From NCBI GenBank assembly GCA_017549485.1, contig JAFYUT010000076.1, forward strand, positions 1-64,000: a stretch of 64,000 bases of DNA, in the 5' to 3' direction. The position numbers and the translations under genes are program-made. Shown piece by piece: positions 37,236-44,555 of the stretch (positions within the stretch are counted from its first letter, which is position 1; every line of letters begins with the position of its first letter). The notes below the pieces were generated by a model. The model ran no database searches. It worked only from the letters and a program-made list of their open reading frames with translations, and had not been told where the DNA came from. Source of the DNA: Akkermansia sp. (GTDB taxonomy: Bacteria > Verrucomicrobiota > Verrucomicrobiia > Verrucomicrobiales > Akkermansiaceae).

Positions 37236-38120
37236 ATGTTAAATCGCTTGCTTACATGCCTGTTTACATGCGCTACCGTATCAATGCTTGCGGCGGAGGA
37301 GTCCGTGTATGCTCATTGTCGTTCATCTGAGGTGTCAGAGACTGAGGCAGGTGCTTTACAACCTCTTTTTGAACACTATTTCGGTAGTTCGATGCAGCAA
37401 ACGCGAGAGCAATGGGATGCTGAGCGTGGTGCGTATTATTTCGCGTTCCGTAGCCGAGACAAGGGAAATACCACAGTGTTACATGAGTGTATATGGTTGC
37501 TCTCGGCAGATGGCACCACATTGCGCTACCTGACGTGTCAGAAACGTGAAAATGGAACCCGTTTTGCCTATACGGAGCGTGTGCAAAAGGCTGTGGCTCC
37601 TTATCTGTTTGTGAAATGGGAGGAGACCGCAGCCTACTTCTCCCGATGGTCTCCGGAGCCGGATGCCCGCAATACCATACGCGTAGAGCAAATGTGCGCC
37701 CGTTACCGAGATTATGCCTCTGCTGCCAGAACAACGACGGAGGAGGAAAAGGCGCTGGTGCTCTATTATATTCACCGAATGCCACAAAACACTGGTGGTG
37801 CCATTGCCCGGTGGGATGCGGAGAAGAAAGTCCTTTGGCGGGCTCGCGTTGAGGGGGCGCAAATCAGGGGTGGATTATATGTTTTCTCGGAGGATGAGAA
37901 AACGCTGTGTGTTATTGCTGCCTCTTGGGATGGTTGTGAACTGAGGGCCGGTATGGTTACGCAATACAGGCGCCTGGCTCCCGGTCTGTATGCGGCCGTT
38001 AAGGCATCTCGTATACCTGAGCACGGTGATTTTGCGGTGTTGGTTTTGGCTCAAGACCCGCAGACCGGGCACCCGATGATACAAAGCTCTCATCAATATA
38101 CTATACCCATCGAAGAATAA
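37236..38120 (+). CDS. Secreted protein of unknown function, tandem paralogue 1
   Basis: Encodes 294 residues with a signal peptide (LLTCLFTCATVSMLA, cleavage near AEES). The mature part shares a block with the next gene: GSSMQQTREQWDAE, AYYFAF, VLHECIWLLS, TLRYLTC, then YFSRWSPEPDARNTIRVEQ. The layout (a conserved half of about 130 residues followed by a more divergent half) recalls the CpcT/CpeT-like lipocalin-type proteins, but the match is too weak to assign. It is 21 bp upstream of its paralogue, so the two are co-transcribed. Confidence 0.7.
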   Translation: MLNRLLTCLFTCATVSMLAAEESVYAHCRSSEVSETEAGALQPLFEHYFGSSMQQTREQWDAERGAYYFAFRSRDKGNTTVLHECIWLLSADGTTLRYLTCQKRENGTRFAYTERVQKAVAPYLFVKWEETAAYFSRWSPEPDARNTIRVEQMCARYRDYASAARTTTEEEKALVLYYIHRMPQNTGGAIARWDAEKKVLWRARVEGAQIRGGLYVFSEDEKTLCVIAASWDGCELRAGMVTQYRRLAPGLYAAVKASRIPEHGDFAVLVLAQDPQTGHPMIQSSHQYTIPIEE

Positions 38121-38141: not shown

Positions 38142-39041
38142 ATGAAAAAACTATTGCTCAGTATGATTCTGTCTGCACCCGTTGCCATGGGGTGCATCAG
38201 TGTGCCGAAAGAGCCTGTTTATGCATGCCGAGAGACATCGGTGGAGGCATCTGCCGTAGTTGAGGTACAAGGCGTGTTTGAACAATTATTCGGTAGCTCG
38301 ATGCAACAAACGCGTGAGCAGTGGAATGCTGAGCTGCGGGCTTACTTCTTTGCGTTCTCGATGCGCGCTGGGGATGGCGAACGAGTGTTGCACGAATGTG
38401 TTTGGCTGATTTCTGAGGAAGGCAAGACGCTGCGATACATCACCTGTGAGAAATTGGCAGATGGCACTCGCCGTGCTTTTCGGGAGAGGGTGCAGCAAGC
38501 GGTGAAACCGTTTCTCTTTGTGAAAATAGAGGCTGATGCCGCCTATTTTTCGCACTGGAATCCCGTGCCCGATAGCCGCAACATGATTCGGGTGGAGCAG
38601 GTGCGTGTGGATTTCTCCACCTGCTCATTCCCCATGACCCGGAGAATGACGCCGGAGGAAAAAAGCCTGATGGCCTGCTATGCGCGTACCGATACGCAAG
38701 CGGAACAATGGGATGCGGAGAATAAAGTGCTTTGGCAATCAAAGTATCACGGTTATCTCAGTAAGCCGTATACCTCTGTCGGCTTACATGTTTTTTCGAC
38801 AGATGAGAAACACTGCCGCTTTATGTCGGCAAAATTGAATGAAAAGGGTGAAATAGCCTTCGGGTGTGTTATGGAGTCCGTGTACGTCATGCCCGGGGTT
38901 TATGTGTCTGTCACACAGTCCGAGCCTTCTAATTTGCAAATTTGGCTTTTTGAAAAAAATCAGCATACCGGCGCCCCAGTGCCTGCATCTACCATGTACT
39001 ATCACATCCCCACGCAACGCTTATTGCAAGGTTGGTATTGA
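38142..39041 (+). CDS. Secreted protein of unknown function, tandem paralogue 2
   Basis: Encodes 299 residues with a signal-like N-terminus MKKLLLSMILSAPVAMGC. The Cys could be a lipobox, though Ala at -3 is atypical. It is clearly homologous to the preceding gene: FGSSMQQTREQWNAEL, AYFFAFSMR, VLHECVWLIS, TLRYITCEK, AYFSHWNPVPDSRNMIRVEQV and LHVFSTDEKHC. The gene pair most likely arose by duplication. A bidirectional hairpin downstream ends the transcript. Function unknown. Confidence 0.7.
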   Translation: MKKLLLSMILSAPVAMGCISVPKEPVYACRETSVEASAVVEVQGVFEQLFGSSMQQTREQWNAELRAYFFAFSMRAGDGERVLHECVWLISEEGKTLRYITCEKLADGTRRAFRERVQQAVKPFLFVKIEADAAYFSHWNPVPDSRNMIRVEQVRVDFSTCSFPMTRRMTPEEKSLMACYARTDTQAEQWDAENKVLWQSKYHGYLSKPYTSVGLHVFSTDEKHCRFMSAKLNEKGEIAFGCVMESVYVMPGVYVSVTQSEPSNLQIWLFEKNQHTGAPVPASTMYYHIPTQRLLQGWY

Positions 39042-39100
39042 TTTTCAACGGAAAATTGAAATTAAAGAAAACGCTGATTGATATACTCCTGTTCCGAATA

Positions 39101-39144
39101 AACAACAACCGCTGCTCGTAAAACAAGCAGCGGTTGTTGTTTTA
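39101..39144. terminator. Bidirectional terminator between the paralogue pair and the pfk operon
   Basis: A 16-bp perfect stem (AACAACAACCGCTGCT/AGCAGCGGTTGTTGTT) with a 9-base loop is flanked by T-rich sequence on both strands. It can end both the 37236-39041 transcript and the convergent nanA-pfk operon. Confidence 0.85.
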
Positions 39145-39159: not shown

Positions 39160-40257
39160 TCAGATACGCAGCGGGGTATCATCGCCGAAGGAGATGCCGA
39201 TTTCCTTGGCTTCTGCCACCAGCTGGCTTTCACCGTCTACCAAGTGTAGCGTGCGTACAGCTTCTTCAATGGGCATGGATACCATGTCATTGCGGCGCAG
39301 GGCAACGGTTTCCCCGAACTTGCCTTGCTCAACGAGCTCTACGGCCTTGGCGCCGCAGCGTACACCCAGCACGCGGTCGAACGGGATGGGAGAACCACCG
39401 CGCTGTACATGGCCGAGCACGCAGTAGCGAGTCTCGATGCCGGTGATGGTTTCAAGCTTGGTGGAGAGGAAAGAGGCAATGCCGCCCAAGCGAACCTCGC
39501 CCTTGGTCTCTTCGTCCAGCGTGAGCAGTTTACCGCCGATTTTTGCACCCTCAGACACCACGATAATGATTTCGCGCTGGCCGAGAGCCTTCATCAGCTC
39601 TACCTTCTTGACGATTTCTTCAAGCTTGAACTCAATCTCGGGGATGAGGATAACGTCTGCACCGCCGGCAATACCGCCGTACAGGGCAATCCAGCCGGCG
39701 TGGCGGCCCATTACCTCTACCACCATCATGCGCTTGTGGCTGTCAGCCGTGGTGCGCAGGCGGTCCAAGTTGTCGCTAACCACGGATACAGCCGTCCAGA
39801 AACCGAAAGTGTAGTCCGTAGCGCCTAAGTCATTATCAATGGTCTTAGGCACGCCCACAATGGGCAGCCCGATGGCACGCAACTCGTTACCGATGGTCTG
39901 AGAGCCGTCGCCACCCACCACGATGAGGGCTTTGAGGCCGAGCCGCTCTACGGTAGCCTTACTTTGAGCCAACACTTCATCTGCAATCTGCATGCGGCCA
40001 CCCACACCGCTCTTCACGGTGAAGTTACCCTTGTTAACAGTGCCGAGAATGGTGCCGCCCATGGAGCGGATGTTGTGGCAGTTTTCGGGGGTAAGCTCGC
40101 GCCAACGCTCGTTATCGGGCGTGGAGAGCAACCCCTCAAAGCCATCATAGAAGCCGATGACCTTCCAGCCACGTGCGGCTGCGGCGCCTACGGCACCTTC
40201 AATCACGGCGTTAAGTCCGGGGCAGTCGCCACCGGCGTTGAGAATTCCGATATTCAT
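39160..40257 (-). CDS. pfkA: 6-phosphofructokinase, catalytically intact paralogue
   Basis: Encodes 365 residues. It phosphorylates fructose-6-phosphate to fructose-1,6-bisphosphate. Nucleotide-site GGDGS has the metal-binding D117; PKTIDND has the catalytic base D141; VEVMGRHAG has the F6P-contacting R185; ETRYCVLGHVQRGG is intact. Gly after D117 together with Lys at 138 is the pattern of ATP-dependent group III enzymes rather than the pyrophosphate type (which has Asp there), an inference to be tested. The ATG at 40257 opens MNIGILNAGGDCPG. It is the last gene of the nanA operon, 13 bp after the S11-like gene. Confidence 0.92.
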   Translation of the reverse strand: MNIGILNAGGDCPGLNAVIEGAVGAAAARGWKVIGFYDGFEGLLSTPDNERWRELTPENCHNIRSMGGTILGTVNKGNFTVKSGVGGRMQIADEVLAQSKATVERLGLKALIVVGGDGSQTIGNELRAIGLPIVGVPKTIDNDLGATDYTFGFWTAVSVVSDNLDRLRTTADSHKRMMVVEVMGRHAGWIALYGGIAGGADVILIPEIEFKLEEIVKKVELMKALGQREIIIVVSEGAKIGGKLLTLDEETKGEVRLGGIASFLSTKLETITGIETRYCVLGHVQRGGSPIPFDRVLGVRCGAKAVELVEQGKFGETVALRRNDMVSMPIEEAVRTLHLVDGESQLVAEAKEIGISFGDDTPLRI

Positions 40258-40270
40258 GATGTGAAAAAAG

Positions 40271-41239
40271 TTAGTTTTTAGGCAGGCGAATAAACTTGGA
40301 GGGATCAGAGGTGTCACTGGAGGTTTGCCAGATTTCCCATGCTTCCCAGCCGTCTTTCAAGAGGGCTGCGGCCTTATTGTTGCGCGTATCGGCAGTGGGC
40401 ATGCCCAGCACAATGACGAGAAGACGCTGTGCATAGGTGGATTGTCTGCCGAGGGTGGGGTTGTATGCTTTGACACTGCCGCGTTTGGCAGAGGCCATGA
40501 TGCAGTACCCGGCTGAGCCGGAGCCTGCGGAGCGAATGCCGTCCACACCTTGGCTTGTAAGCAAGCGGTTGGTGTTGGTAATCTGCACGGGGCGGGTGCC
40601 CATGGCGTTGGTTACGTTGGCAGTATAGTCCGTTTTGGAGCAGATGGTCTGCACCTGCGGACGCTCAATGGCGTATATACCCAGCAGCACCATGTCTCGG
40701 GCGGTGGAGGTAGAGCGCACGGCTCCGTTCACGCCTTTGAACGTGGTTTGCTTCATGCCGATAGCTTCGGCCAGCTTGTTCATCTGGATGAGGAATGCCC
40801 CCTCGGGATCCTGCGGGCTGAGCTTGTAACCGCATGCCCAGGCAAGAGCCGTGGCGGCGGCACTGTCATCCCACATCAGGGTGGAGTGCAGGGCATCTCT
40901 CAGGCTGATGCGGTCTCCGGGGCGCAGCTGCATCATGTTAGATGCAGGCCAACGGCAGGCAGCCTGCGGTACGGTCAGCATGGTGTCCATACTCAGGTTC
41001 TCGGATTTCATCCAGTCCAACACCACCAGTGCGGTGGCAATGTTGGCCAGCATGCCGATGGGGCGGCGCTCGTTGGCGTTTTCAGAGAAGAGTACGCGCT
41101 CGTTGTTTGTTTCAACAACGATATAGCTCGGCGACATTTCTGCGGCCGTTTTTGGGGGGAATATCTGGCTGCAGGCTCCCAGCATCACTGCGGTTCCTGC
41201 GCACAGCATACCTTTAATCCTGTTTATCGCTTTATTCAT
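40271..41239 (-). CDS. S11 (D-Ala-D-Ala carboxypeptidase-like) lipoprotein lacking all catalytic motifs
   Basis: Encodes 322 residues. The lipoprotein signal ends in MLGAC at residue 23. The fold is that of penicillin-binding-protein-type D,D-carboxypeptidases: YIVVETNNERVLFSENANERR, RPGDRISLRDALHSTLMWDDS, GVNGAVRSTSTARDMVLLG and GSAGYCIMASAKRG. But the three active-site motifs are altered: SxxK reads M63-L-A-N66, SxN reads M122-W-D124, and KTG reads R236-S-A238. It should not hydrolyse peptidoglycan; binding or structural roles are possible. Its start overlaps the stop of the upstream degenerate pfk gene by four bases (ATGA), so it is translationally coupled inside a sugar-catabolic operon. 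Confidence 0.85.
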   Translation of the reverse strand: MNKAINRIKGMLCAGTAVMLGACSQIFPPKTAAEMSPSYIVVETNNERVLFSENANERRPIGMLANIATALVVLDWMKSENLSMDTMLTVPQAACRWPASNMMQLRPGDRISLRDALHSTLMWDDSAAATALAWACGYKLSPQDPEGAFLIQMNKLAEAIGMKQTTFKGVNGAVRSTSTARDMVLLGIYAIERPQVQTICSKTDYTANVTNAMGTRPVQITNTNRLLTSQGVDGIRSAGSGSAGYCIMASAKRGSVKAYNPTLGRQSTYAQRLLVIVLGMPTADTRNNKAAALLKDGWEAWEIWQTSSDTSDPSKFIRLPKN

Positions 41240-42390
41240 TTCTTACTTTTGGTCTTGCAGCCTTTCGGGGTGGCTTTGCAGGCTTTCGGGGCCATTTCCT
41301 CAGGTGTGAGGTCACCGAAAATGATACCCAACTCACGGGCCGTTTGTACGGTGTGATTATCGAGGGTGATGGTGCGGGGCTCGGCAATGGCCTCGGCAAT
41401 GGGTACACTGTCCACATTGTGACCATTAAGCACCATGGTGCGACCGAACTGCTTCTCTTCAATGAGTTTTACCGCTTCAACACCGAATCGAATGCCCAAA
41501 ATGCGGTCAAACGGGCAGGGACTGCCACCACGTTGGGTGTGGCCCAATACGCAATAGCGCGTTTCAATGCCGGTCATTTCTTCCAGCATCTTGGAGAGTC
41601 GGTTACCGATACCGCCGAGTCGCTCATCACCGTTTTCTTTGTTGCGCACGGTGACCAGCTTGCCGTTCAGACGACAACCCTCAGCCACAACAACGATGAT
41701 TTCACGCTGCCCCTTGGCTTTCTTGGCCTTGATGCACTCTACCACTTTTTCCAAATCGAACTCGATTTCGGGGATGAGTACAACATCTGCCGCAGAGGAG
41801 ATACCACTGTGCAGGGCAATCCAGCCGGATTGGTCACCCATCACCTCTACTACCATCATGCGCTGGTGGGCGTTGGCCGTAGTGCGGATGCGGTCTATGC
41901 TTTCAGATACCACCGATACCGCGCTCTGGAAACCGAAGGTATAGTCAGAGGCCGGGCACAGGTCATTGTTGATGGTTTTGGGGATGGAAATCACCGGCAG
42001 ACCTTCATCGGAGAGGAGGCTGGCTGTGCGGGCCGAGCCGTTACCGCCGATAACGGCAAGGGCTTCCAACCCCAGAGCGGTGATTGTCTTGGTTGCTTTG
42101 GCCATAATCTCGGGCTCCACGCGGGCACGGCCGAGCTTATTGATATTGACCTTGAAATTGCCCGTGTTGGTGGTGCCCAAAATGGTGCCACCGTGGGAGC
42201 GAATCTTGTGAGTCTTGTAGGGGGTGAGCATTTCGTAGCGGCGACCACCGGCTACGGGCAGCAATCCTTCAAAACCATCATGGAAGCCGATTACGCGCCA
42301 GCCGCGTCGATACGCGGCTGAAACGTAACCTTCAATGACGGCATTGATGCCGGGGCAGTCGCCACCGGAATTGAGTATGCCTATAATCAT
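41236..42390 (-). CDS. Degenerate phosphofructokinase paralogue (predicted inactive)
   Basis: Encodes 384 residues and aligns throughout with the intact PFK at 39160-40257 (ILNSGGDCPGINAVIEGYVS; TILGTTNTGNF; IETRYCVLGHTQRGGSPCP). Key residues are changed: GGDGS becomes GGNGS (N117, the metal ligand), PKTIDND becomes PKTINND (N141, the catalytic base), and the MGR motif becomes MGD (D186). The fold and sugar-binding ETR and GH-QRGG motifs are kept, so it may be a regulatory or structural partner of the active PFK. The C-terminus adds a Lys/Cys-rich tail (KACKATPKGCKTKSKK). It follows the epimerase gene by 26 bp. Confidence 0.88.
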   Translation of the reverse strand: MIIGILNSGGDCPGINAVIEGYVSAAYRRGWRVIGFHDGFEGLLPVAGGRRYEMLTPYKTHKIRSHGGTILGTTNTGNFKVNINKLGRARVEPEIMAKATKTITALGLEALAVIGGNGSARTASLLSDEGLPVISIPKTINNDLCPASDYTFGFQSAVSVVSESIDRIRTTANAHQRMMVVEVMGDQSGWIALHSGISSAADVVLIPEIEFDLEKVVECIKAKKAKGQREIIVVVAEGCRLNGKLVTVRNKENGDERLGGIGNRLSKMLEEMTGIETRYCVLGHTQRGGSPCPFDRILGIRFGVEAVKLIEEKQFGRTMVLNGHNVDSVPIAEAIAEPRTITLDNHTVQTARELGIIFGDLTPEEMAPKACKATPKGCKTKSKK

Positions 42391-42416: not shown

Positions 42417-43607
42417 TTATTTGTTGGAGCAGGGGGCGTCAATCGCGCCGAAGTAGTGGGCGCAGCACCACAGCATACGCGGGTGGTGGAAGAACGATTT
42501 CCACATGCTGCCCTTGAGACCGTTGGTGGTGGTGCCGTCCTGGTTGCAGTAGCCGAACCACTCGCCGTGTTCCTTATCCTGCAGGTGCTCAAATGACCAG
42601 TCGTGAATCTTTTGGTGCCATTCGGCATATTTTTCATCACCGGTCATGACGTAAGCTAAGCAGGTGCCGATGAGTGCTTCATCGTGCGGCCACCAGAACT
42701 TCATGTTATGCCAGTACTCCTGCACGGGCTTGTTGTACACGTCTGTGTAGTACAGCAGGCCACCGTACTTTTTGTCCCAGCCGCGGGCAAGTGCCCAGTC
42801 AATCATCTTGCAGCCAATCTCAATGAGCTTCTTGTCGCCCCCGCGGTAGCGGGCTTCCTCCAATACGAACCAGCCGCCTTCAATGTCGTGGCCGGGGTTG
42901 AGGATGCGCTCGTCAAAGTGGTCAATCACAGAGCCATCGGGGGCTACGTTCTCCAACACGGCCTGAATGTCCTCGTGCAGGAAGAGGCGTTGCAGGTCAT
43001 CAATGCAGCGGTCAATCCAAGCGGTGTAGAAACCGTCGGTATCGCCCAAATAGCGGCGCAGCTCTTGAGCCGTTACAATCATAATCATGCGGCAACCCAA
43101 GTTTTCGCCGGGGCGGTTGCCCGTGCTCTTGGGGGCCATCTTGCCGGGTGTAAAGAAGATATCGGCGTAGATGTCAAACCAGTGGCGAGCACGCTCGGCG
43201 CTGTGCGCATCACCCGTGGCGCCGTAGTGGGCGGCCCAGGCAATGGCGGCAAAGCATTCGCTATAAGCATAGCGGCGCTTGCGGATGGGGGTGCCATCTG
43301 CCGTCATGTGGAAGTACATGCGCCCGTCTGCCGGGTCCACACACTTCTCTTCAAGGAATTTGAGGGCGCTCTCGGCGTATTGCATCCACTCCGGGCGCTT
43401 TTCGATGCTGTTGTAGCAGGTAAGGAGCATCCAAGCCATGCGGCCCTGTGCCCATACGTTCTTGTCAGTATCTACCAAGGTGCCGTCTTGTGCGCAGCAG
43501 TGGTAGAGACCCCCGTTCACTGTGTCCAGTGAACGGGGAAACCAGAACGGCTCTACCTCATTGAGCAGCTTGTCTTTGTAGAATTGACCAAGTGCTTTGG
43601 TGTCCAT
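42417..43607 (-). CDS. N-acylglucosamine 2-epimerase (AGE/RnBP family)
   Basis: Encodes 396 residues, the family's usual size, with an (alpha/alpha)6 barrel. It interconverts N-acetylmannosamine and N-acetylglucosamine. Conserved sites are seen: GGLYHCCAQDG, NVWAQGRMAWML, RRYAYSECFAAIAW, NPGHDIEGGWFVLEEA with the His/Glu pair, and KFWWPHDEALIGT. It lies 21 bp after nanA, and together they take sialic acid to GlcNAc. Related epimerases act on other hexoses, so substrate rests on context. Confidence 0.9.
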   Translation of the reverse strand: MDTKALGQFYKDKLLNEVEPFWFPRSLDTVNGGLYHCCAQDGTLVDTDKNVWAQGRMAWMLLTCYNSIEKRPEWMQYAESALKFLEEKCVDPADGRMYFHMTADGTPIRKRRYAYSECFAAIAWAAHYGATGDAHSAERARHWFDIYADIFFTPGKMAPKSTGNRPGENLGCRMIMIVTAQELRRYLGDTDGFYTAWIDRCIDDLQRLFLHEDIQAVLENVAPDGSVIDHFDERILNPGHDIEGGWFVLEEARYRGGDKKLIEIGCKMIDWALARGWDKKYGGLLYYTDVYNKPVQEYWHNMKFWWPHDEALIGTCLAYVMTGDEKYAEWHQKIHDWSFEHLQDKEHGEWFGYCNQDGTTTNGLKGSMWKSFFHHPRMLWCCAHYFGAIDAPCSNK

Positions 43608-43628: not shown

Positions 43629-44555
43629 TTATTTGTAGATAGCCCAATCGTAGAAGCCGATTGCCTTCAGCTCGCTCTTGAGAGCCTCAAGGGTGGCTTT
43701 ATCTTGCTTGCCCATGGGCAGACGAGCCGGGCCGAAGTCAACGCCGGTCCACTCGCTCATCAGGTACTTGCAGCAACCCATGTAGCCCTTGCCGGCAATG
43801 ATGTTAATCATGGTGACGGAGAGCTGCTGCAGGCGGCGGGCCTCGGCAAGATCCCCGGCGTCAACGGCCTTCATGATGTCATCATACAGCTTCGGGGCGT
43901 AGTTGAAGGAGGAACCTACACCGCCCTTGGCGCCTGTGGCGTATGCGCCCAAGAACCACTCGTCAACACCCCAGGGAATGTCGTACTTGCCACCCTCGTA
44001 GTTGAGGGCATCCATGTACAGAGCAAGGTCCGGATTGGTGAACTTGACACCCACGAAGTTGGGAATCTTCTTGGCGCATGCCTCAATTACCTTGCAGGGG
44101 TTGAAGCCTACGTGGGTCAGCACGGGGATGTCATAGAAGGAGTAGGGCAGCTCCGGTGCGCCGGAGGCCTCCACAGCCAAGCTGTCTACCAGCAGGTCAA
44201 TGTTACCCGGCTTGAAGTAGCAGGGGGCATTGCTGGCGGTTGCGGTGGCACCGCACTGGGCAGCGTAAGCAGCCAGTTCGCGGCCGTCATACACGCAGTT
44301 GCCACCGGTGTGTACAACTACATCGATGCCGTACTTCTTGCCGGCTTCGCCCCAAGCGGCCATGTTCTCCTTACGCTCGGTCAGCTGCATGTGGGCAGAT
44401 TCACCCGTAGAACCGGTGATGAATACTGACTTAATGCCCTGAGAAGCAAGGAACTTAGCCTGAGCGTCCACTGCGTTGGGGTTGCAGCTGCCGTCGGCGT
44501 TCATCGGTGTGTGTGTAGCGGCGCAAAGGCCGTGGATTTTGAATGTAGTGTTCAT
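43629..44555 (-). CDS. nanA: N-acetylneuraminate lyase
   Basis: Encodes 308 residues of the DHDPS/NAL (beta/alpha)8 family. It splits N-acetylneuraminate into N-acetylmannosamine and pyruvate through a Schiff base. Seen: FITGSTGESAHMQLTERKE, the Tyr of YSFYDIPVLTHVGFNP, the Schiff-base Lys in FVGVKFTNPDLALYM, and GAKGGVGSSFN. The adjacent AGE epimerase supports lyase rather than dihydrodipicolinate synthase. It is first in an apparent five-gene operon ending with pfkA. Sialic acid use fits a mucin-associated gut bacterium. Confidence 0.92.
   Translation of the reverse strand: MNTTFKIHGLCAATHTPMNADGSCNPNAVDAQAKFLASQGIKSVFITGSTGESAHMQLTERKENMAAWGEAGKKYGIDVVVHTGGNCVYDGRELAAYAAQCGATATASNAPCYFKPGNIDLLVDSLAVEASGAPELPYSFYDIPVLTHVGFNPCKVIEACAKKIPNFVGVKFTNPDLALYMDALNYEGGKYDIPWGVDEWFLGAYATGAKGGVGSSFNYAPKLYDDIMKAVDAGDLAEARRLQQLSVTMINIIAGKGYMGCCKYLMSEWTGVDFGPARLPMGKQDKATLEALKSELKAIGFYDWAIYK

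Follow-up and report, generated by a model that had tools for sequence, protein, structure and literature searches.

The phosphofructokinase gene cluster

The window analyzed here is a stretch of 64,000 nucleotides of Akkermansia sp. DNA (assembly GCA_017549485.1, contig JAFYUT010000076.1, positions 1 to 64,000), from a source genome of 2.26 Mb in 108 contigs. On its minus strand lies a cluster whose first gene (43629..44555) codes for a lyase of the DHDPS family resembling N-acetylneuraminate lyase (NAL; NanA/DapA-like), followed by a gene for an N-acylglucosamine 2-epimerase (AGE)-like protein (42417..43607). The next gene (41236..42390, minus strand) encodes a 384-amino-acid PFK-family paralogue without the catalytic base, which we call PFKn and which was recognized from its ORF, its PF00365 match, and its alignment. 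Between PFKn and an intact PFK in which D103, D127, and R171 are all present (PFKd; 39160..40257, minus strand) sits a gene for an S11-type D-Ala-D-Ala carboxypeptidase-like protein (S11; 40271..41239, minus strand), which shares 4 bases with the end of PFKn. The PFKn ORF starts with ATG and has no internal stops. Its product matches PF00365 with 318 bits over profile positions 2 to 277 of 277, making it by profile a full-length PFK superfamily domain (PFK-A fold), while PFKd matches the same profile over its full length with 323 bits. PFKn also scores 336 bits against NF002872 (cut-off, 253), and the automatic label "ATP-dependent 6-phosphofructokinase" would be wrong for the whole clade of gut Akkermansia PFKn proteins. 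A third PFK in the source genome is of the PPi type, is truncated by its contig, and carries the motifs GGNDS and PKTIDND. Beyond the cluster, two adjacent plus-strand genes (37236-38120 and 38142-39041) encode proteins with similar sequences and signal-like N-termini, and a profile scan gave no Pfam match for the product of the former.

The genes of the cluster are separated by 13 to 26 bases or overlap by 4 bases, and directly after PFKd there is an inverted repeat (39100..39142, minus strand) with 20-nt arms at 39100-39119 and 39123-39142 that are 95% complementary. This repeat is a possible operon terminator; a scan with consensus promoters and terminators returned nothing usable above chance expectation, and the repeat was not among its reports. 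Because the spacings are tight and the inverted repeat follows PFKd, the cluster is likely to form one transcript, from which PFKn and PFKd would probably both be made. The original prediction had placed the intact copy next to the altered one, and PFKd is found as the second gene downstream of PFKn, on the same strand in the window, and keeps this place in all genomes whose contigs cover the region. The full order NAL-AGE-PFKn-S11-PFKd is likewise kept in all PFKn-bearing genomes whose contigs span it, with one contig per set cut short. Cotranscription is no proof of a complex, and neighbors in this operon need not interact, since S11, the gene in between, encodes an envelope enzyme.

Related loci show which parts of the arrangement can occur separately. 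Two relatives have NAL-AGE-S11-PFKd without PFKn (loci L068 and L069), the large-genome Akkermansia examined have S11-PFKd alone with NAL elsewhere, and other Akkermansia also have PFKd without PFKn. S11 lies directly upstream of PFKd across the Akkermansiaceae loci read (L059 to L073), a lasting and unexplained pairing of cell wall and glycolysis genes. A lyase and an epimerase of these kinds form a route from sialic acid to GlcNAc, and with nagB the pathway ends at fructose 6-phosphate (F6P). As nagB is present in the genome together with the lyase-like and epimerase-like genes, whose assignments fall below the NCBIfam equivalog cut-offs, the pathway would end at F6P, the PFK substrate.

Conservation and loss of active-site residues in PFKn

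The original prediction, made from the sequence of the window, pointed to three altered motifs in PFKn, GGNGS (N117), PKTINND (N141), and MGD (D186), and all three were confirmed. It equated these residues with D103, D127, and R171 of E. coli PfkA, and our alignment agrees; the motifs of the E. coli sequence used fall at the positions numbered in the literature. The ETR and GHTQRGG motifs, said to be retained, were found in PFKn as well. To compare positions across genomes, we used PFKn orthologues from 40 Akkermansia genomes, which are independent assemblies with 39 distinct sequences, and a comparison set of 79 other PFKs made up of Akkermansia PFKd proteins, other Akkermansiaceae, some ten further phyla, and E. 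coli. A row from one contig without PFKd (L109) was left out of this set, as the sequence there is PFKn. Position 141 of PFKn, the place of the general base of an active 6-phosphofructokinase, is Asn in 40/40 orthologues, and the equivalent residue is Asp in 79/79 comparison PFKs. D127 is the general base that deprotonates the 1-hydroxyl of F6P (PMC12203962), and it is catalytically essential and conserved throughout PFK-A (PMC11609450).

Among the 79 PFKs that carry D127, 50 alignment columns are invariant, and 46 of them are kept in every PFKn. The four exceptions are D127N (40/40), G121S/C (40/40), T133S (37/40), and A18S (2/40), so that the only charge-changing loss is that of the catalytic base itself. 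K76T had been considered as an additional loss and was dropped, because Thr is also found there in 7 of 24 outgroup PFKs. The residues of the F6P site that were examined (R162, M169, E222, R243, H249, and R252) are all invariant in the 40 PFKn proteins. D129 (D143 of PFKn) is kept in 40/40 and T125 (T139) in 26/26, and Gly118 and Ser119 of the nucleotide loop are again present in all 40, within a donor-loop motif that reads GG[N/S/G/D]GSxxT. Next to its catalytic loop, PFKn also carries a single inserted residue, C145, which is invariant. A phylum-wide sample of 387 genomes gave 10 with a DNA pattern for PKT[I/V]NND, and every one of them belonged to this genus.

The three changes are not of equal weight. 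Position 117 is not fixed (Asn in 21, Ser in 11, Gly in 5, and Asp in 3 of the 40), and position 186 is Asp in 37 and Asn in 3. The D103N change had been put forward as evidence of inactivity. However, Asn is also found there in the PPi-type PFK (GGNDS) and in a Bacteroidota clade that keeps D127, represented by five rows of the comparison set, and Asp remains in 3 of 40 PFKn proteins; since D127-bearing PFKs carry the same Asn, D103N alone does not show inactivity. Nor is the change at R171 decisive, as had been supposed, for His or Asn occupies this position in 10 of the 79 PFKs with D127. The view that three residues were lost, each of them fatal, thus fails at D103 and R171, since both positions vary among PFKs whose D127 is intact. 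What stands of the inactivity argument is D127N, and this change carries the case. Loss of catalysis in PFKn is, on this basis, strongly indicated, with the reservation that D129 and, in 3/40 sequences, D103 of the Mg site remain.

That PFKn keeps the PFK fold, as originally proposed, is supported by its full-length PF00365 match and by an AF2 model of the single chain (54-row alignment; pLDDT, 88.1; pTM, 0.86), the closest structures to which are the PFKs of Geobacillus stearothermophilus and E. coli (Z of about 40, rmsd of 1.4 to 1.5 over about 318 residues). The model shows the PFK fold from end to end and a short, disordered, variable C-terminal tail (residues 371-384, the only part with pLDDT below 50), with no added domain seen.

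Selection, descent, and the phosphate donor of PFKd

A codon model with 39 species gave an omega of 0.044 for PFKn, compared with 0.028 for PFKd, 0.038 for AGE, 0.024 for NAL, and 0.090 for S11, and PFKn is therefore strongly maintained. Purifying selection had been named as a check on the Asn residues, and both this value and the conservation of N141 bear it out. It had also been considered that the substitutions might be a sequencing error or recent drift, with Asp at the changed sites in close relatives; with N141 in 40 genomes (0/40 Asp) and an omega of 0.044, error in sequencing or assembly and recent drift are excluded for this residue, whereas the site of N117 is variable and the objection partly succeeds there (Asp in 3/40).

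PFKn is monophyletic with a single origin (support, 100/100). The sampling covered 41 members of the genus, of which 26 carry it. When the tree is rooted on the family together with other phyla, PFKn is placed as sister to, or outside of, all Akkermansia PFKd proteins (99/95), with long branches present; the PFKn stem itself measures 0.66 to 1.08 changes per column. This placement suggests that the duplication is old and that PFKn was later lost from other lineages, the large-genome Akkermansia among them. An initial tree with E. coli as its sole outgroup had been weak on the age of the duplication (81/50), and an AU test does not firmly reject a more recent duplication within the clade that bears PFKn (P = 0.0507). 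No loss of PFKn was seen inside the PFKn-bearing genus-level clade. The nearest named relatives are Akkermansia MAGs from the guts of goat, sheep, deer, buffalo, cattle, horse, and rabbit ("Lapin"), as well as "Candidatus Akkermansia intestinigallinarum"; PFKn is carried by many gut Akkermansia of plant-eating animals.

The PFKd proteins of the PFKn-bearing clade read GGDGSQTI at the donor loop in 25/25 sequences, whereas those of other Akkermansia read GGDGSQST. GGDGSxxI is the signature of ADP-dependent PFK-A enzymes (PMC11609450). PFKd carries this motif and does not match the ATP signature, and it is thus probably not a textbook ATP enzyme. The difference between GGDGSxxI in the PFKn-bearing clade and GGDGSxxT elsewhere amounts to a predicted switch of donor within one genus. 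PFKn and the ADP signature in PFKd occur in the same clade, a link that may be due to chance, because each is a single event and the lineage is the same for both; it is conceivable that the dead PFKn site senses a nucleotide other than the donor of PFKd. One near-complete genus member (G119) has no close match to PFKd or PFKn (best E value, 5e-39, presumably to a PPi-type enzyme), and PFKd therefore seems to be dispensable there.

Possible functions of PFKn and comparison with known systems

In E. coli PFK, R171 puts a positive charge close to the phosphate being transferred, and Asp at this position would remove that charge. Asn in place of D127 would eliminate the base and could still form a hydrogen bond with the F6P hydroxyl. 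A site with both changes would be expected to bind a monophosphate sugar and to be incapable of phosphoryl transfer; since the F6P half is kept and the base is lost, PFKn should bind F6P or a similar compound without phosphorylating it. In PFK oligomers, Arg243 is borrowed from the neighboring subunit. Arg162 likewise reaches the F6P phosphate from the neighboring subunit (PMC12203962). As both arginines are kept in 40/40 sequences, PFKn could complete the active sites of PFKd, with which it would most likely assemble, and its own dead sites would respond to sugar phosphates as effectors and so set the activity of PFKd. The signal might be sialic acid or amino sugars that feed F6P into glycolysis.

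PFKn has the sequence features of a pseudoenzyme subunit: a lost catalytic residue, purifying selection, and a co-encoded paralogue of the active type. With the loss of D127 universal, the F6P residues kept, and the intact paralogue adjacent, the best reading is an inactive protein that has been retained and is possibly regulatory. We favor, at about an even chance, a pseudo-PFK whose ligand is F6P or a similar sugar phosphate and which regulates the probably cotranscribed PFKd as a hetero-oligomer, because its site is predicted to be for binding only and because the C-terminal half of eukaryotic PFK and plant PFP-alpha provide precedents. The heteromer, its ligand, and the direction of regulation are what we infer from the sequences. 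A more elaborate version, which we offer tentatively, is a bacterial PFK of two genes, in which a live and possibly ADP-using subunit would be joined by a dead one with an effector site for F6P, GlcN6P, or GlcNAc6P; Asp186 would then face the place of the transferred phosphate in the emptied site, and the amino-sugar phosphate effector would be made by the pathway of the same operon.

Retention of the F6P residues would be expected of a sensor and equally of an enzyme whose activity is residual or altered, and by itself does not tell the two apart. PFKn may still be an enzyme that uses another substrate or donor or performs much slower chemistry, for instance on another phosphorylated amino sugar or keto sugar from the sialic acid pathway, with Asn141 or Asp186 taking over parts of catalysis. 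Selection on PFKn is strong and close to that on its active neighbors, Gly118, Ser119, and D143 (40/40) and T139 (26/26) are kept, position 186 has acquired a new Asp or Asn, C145 is invariant beside the catalytic loop, and N103 and H/N171 are tolerated in PFK paralogues elsewhere. We nevertheless regard an altered enzyme as unlikely, as the base is Asp in all 79 other PFKs and is stated to be essential across PFK-A (PMC11609450), and D103 drifts among N, S, G, and D, as expected if binding of Mg-phosphate no longer matters. A stand-alone, homotetrameric sugar-phosphate sensor whose target is the epimerase, the lyase, or gene expression rather than PFKd would fit with the position of PFKn directly after the lyase and epimerase genes and with loci L068 and L069, which lack PFKn and from which it follows that PFKd can do without it in some lineages; the absence of an added domain speaks against such a sensor, and it seems quite unlikely. 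There is little to recommend a dominant-negative or structural filler, which would reduce the number of catalytic sites in PFKd oligomers or stabilize PFKd with no ligand sensing: the shared fold, likely coexpression, and interface arginines kept in 40/40 would suit it, yet H249, E222, M169, and R252 of PFKn's own F6P pocket need not then stay invariant, although folding could explain this. A functionless, decaying duplicate or an assembly error, to which the variable D103 site and long stem branch might point, is practically refuted by the low omega (0.044), the lack of stops, N141 in 40/40, the kept gene order, and the absence of loss within the clade.

Allostery in PFK is textbook knowledge, and eukaryotes are known to regulate the enzyme through dead sites. 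Searches of the open-access literature found no described bacterial PFK pseudoenzyme and nothing on the Akkermansia PFK pair, an absence that weighs little, and PFKn is a real, conserved bacterial PFK pseudoenzyme candidate that is apparently undescribed in the open literature searched. If the favored reading of PFKn as a regulatory partner of PFKd is true, a conserved dead paralogue encoded by a separate bacterial gene would repeat, in nature and independently, the evolution of the regulatory half of eukaryotic PFK. The small size of PFKn suits kinetic and structural work, and the operon suggests a signal, sialic acid or amino sugars entering glycolysis.

One close parallel is the C-terminal half of animal and fungal PFK, which is catalytically dead and has become a fructose 2,6-bisphosphate site (PMC12203962). 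Like PFKn, it is a duplicate without catalytic residues that has kept a sugar-phosphate pocket, and in the rabbit and human enzymes it has PATVSNN and MGG in place of the TIDND and MGR of the live site. However, that half is fused in one polypeptide and has lost its ATP pocket entirely, whereas PFKn is a separate bacterial gene that has kept Gly118 and Ser119 and arose independently within the Akkermansia lineage. The alpha subunit of plant PPi-dependent PFK (PFP) is regulatory (PMC3653104) and, as proposed for PFKn, a member of the PFK family whose gene is separate from that of the catalytic subunit; it differs in being a long, 60-kDa, PPi-type protein of distant sequence, and its complex is established, while that of PFKn is proposed. 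Trypanosomatid DHS "prozyme" is a dead paralogue that joins its live counterpart in a functional heterotetramer (PMC7581365). Both it and PFKn lack catalytic residues, but the enzyme families are unrelated, and the analogy is one of logic alone. The cyanobacterial ADP-dependent PFK-A enzymes Sll1196 and Sll0745 share the GGDGSxxI donor motif with PFKd, and rare members from the PVC group have been reported (PMC11609450); PFKn, in contrast, has GG[N/S/G/D]GSxxT and lacks D127. Finally, a second PFK seen in Bacteroidota (L124, L137, L143, L148, L151, and L194 to L197, among others) has N103, H171, and Y249 and keeps D127. It resembles PFKn in its altered active-site residues and in the presence of an intact PFK in the same genome (4/4 genomes checked), and it differs in that D127 is retained, in its belonging to a different clade, and in not being seen beside an AGE/NAL cluster.
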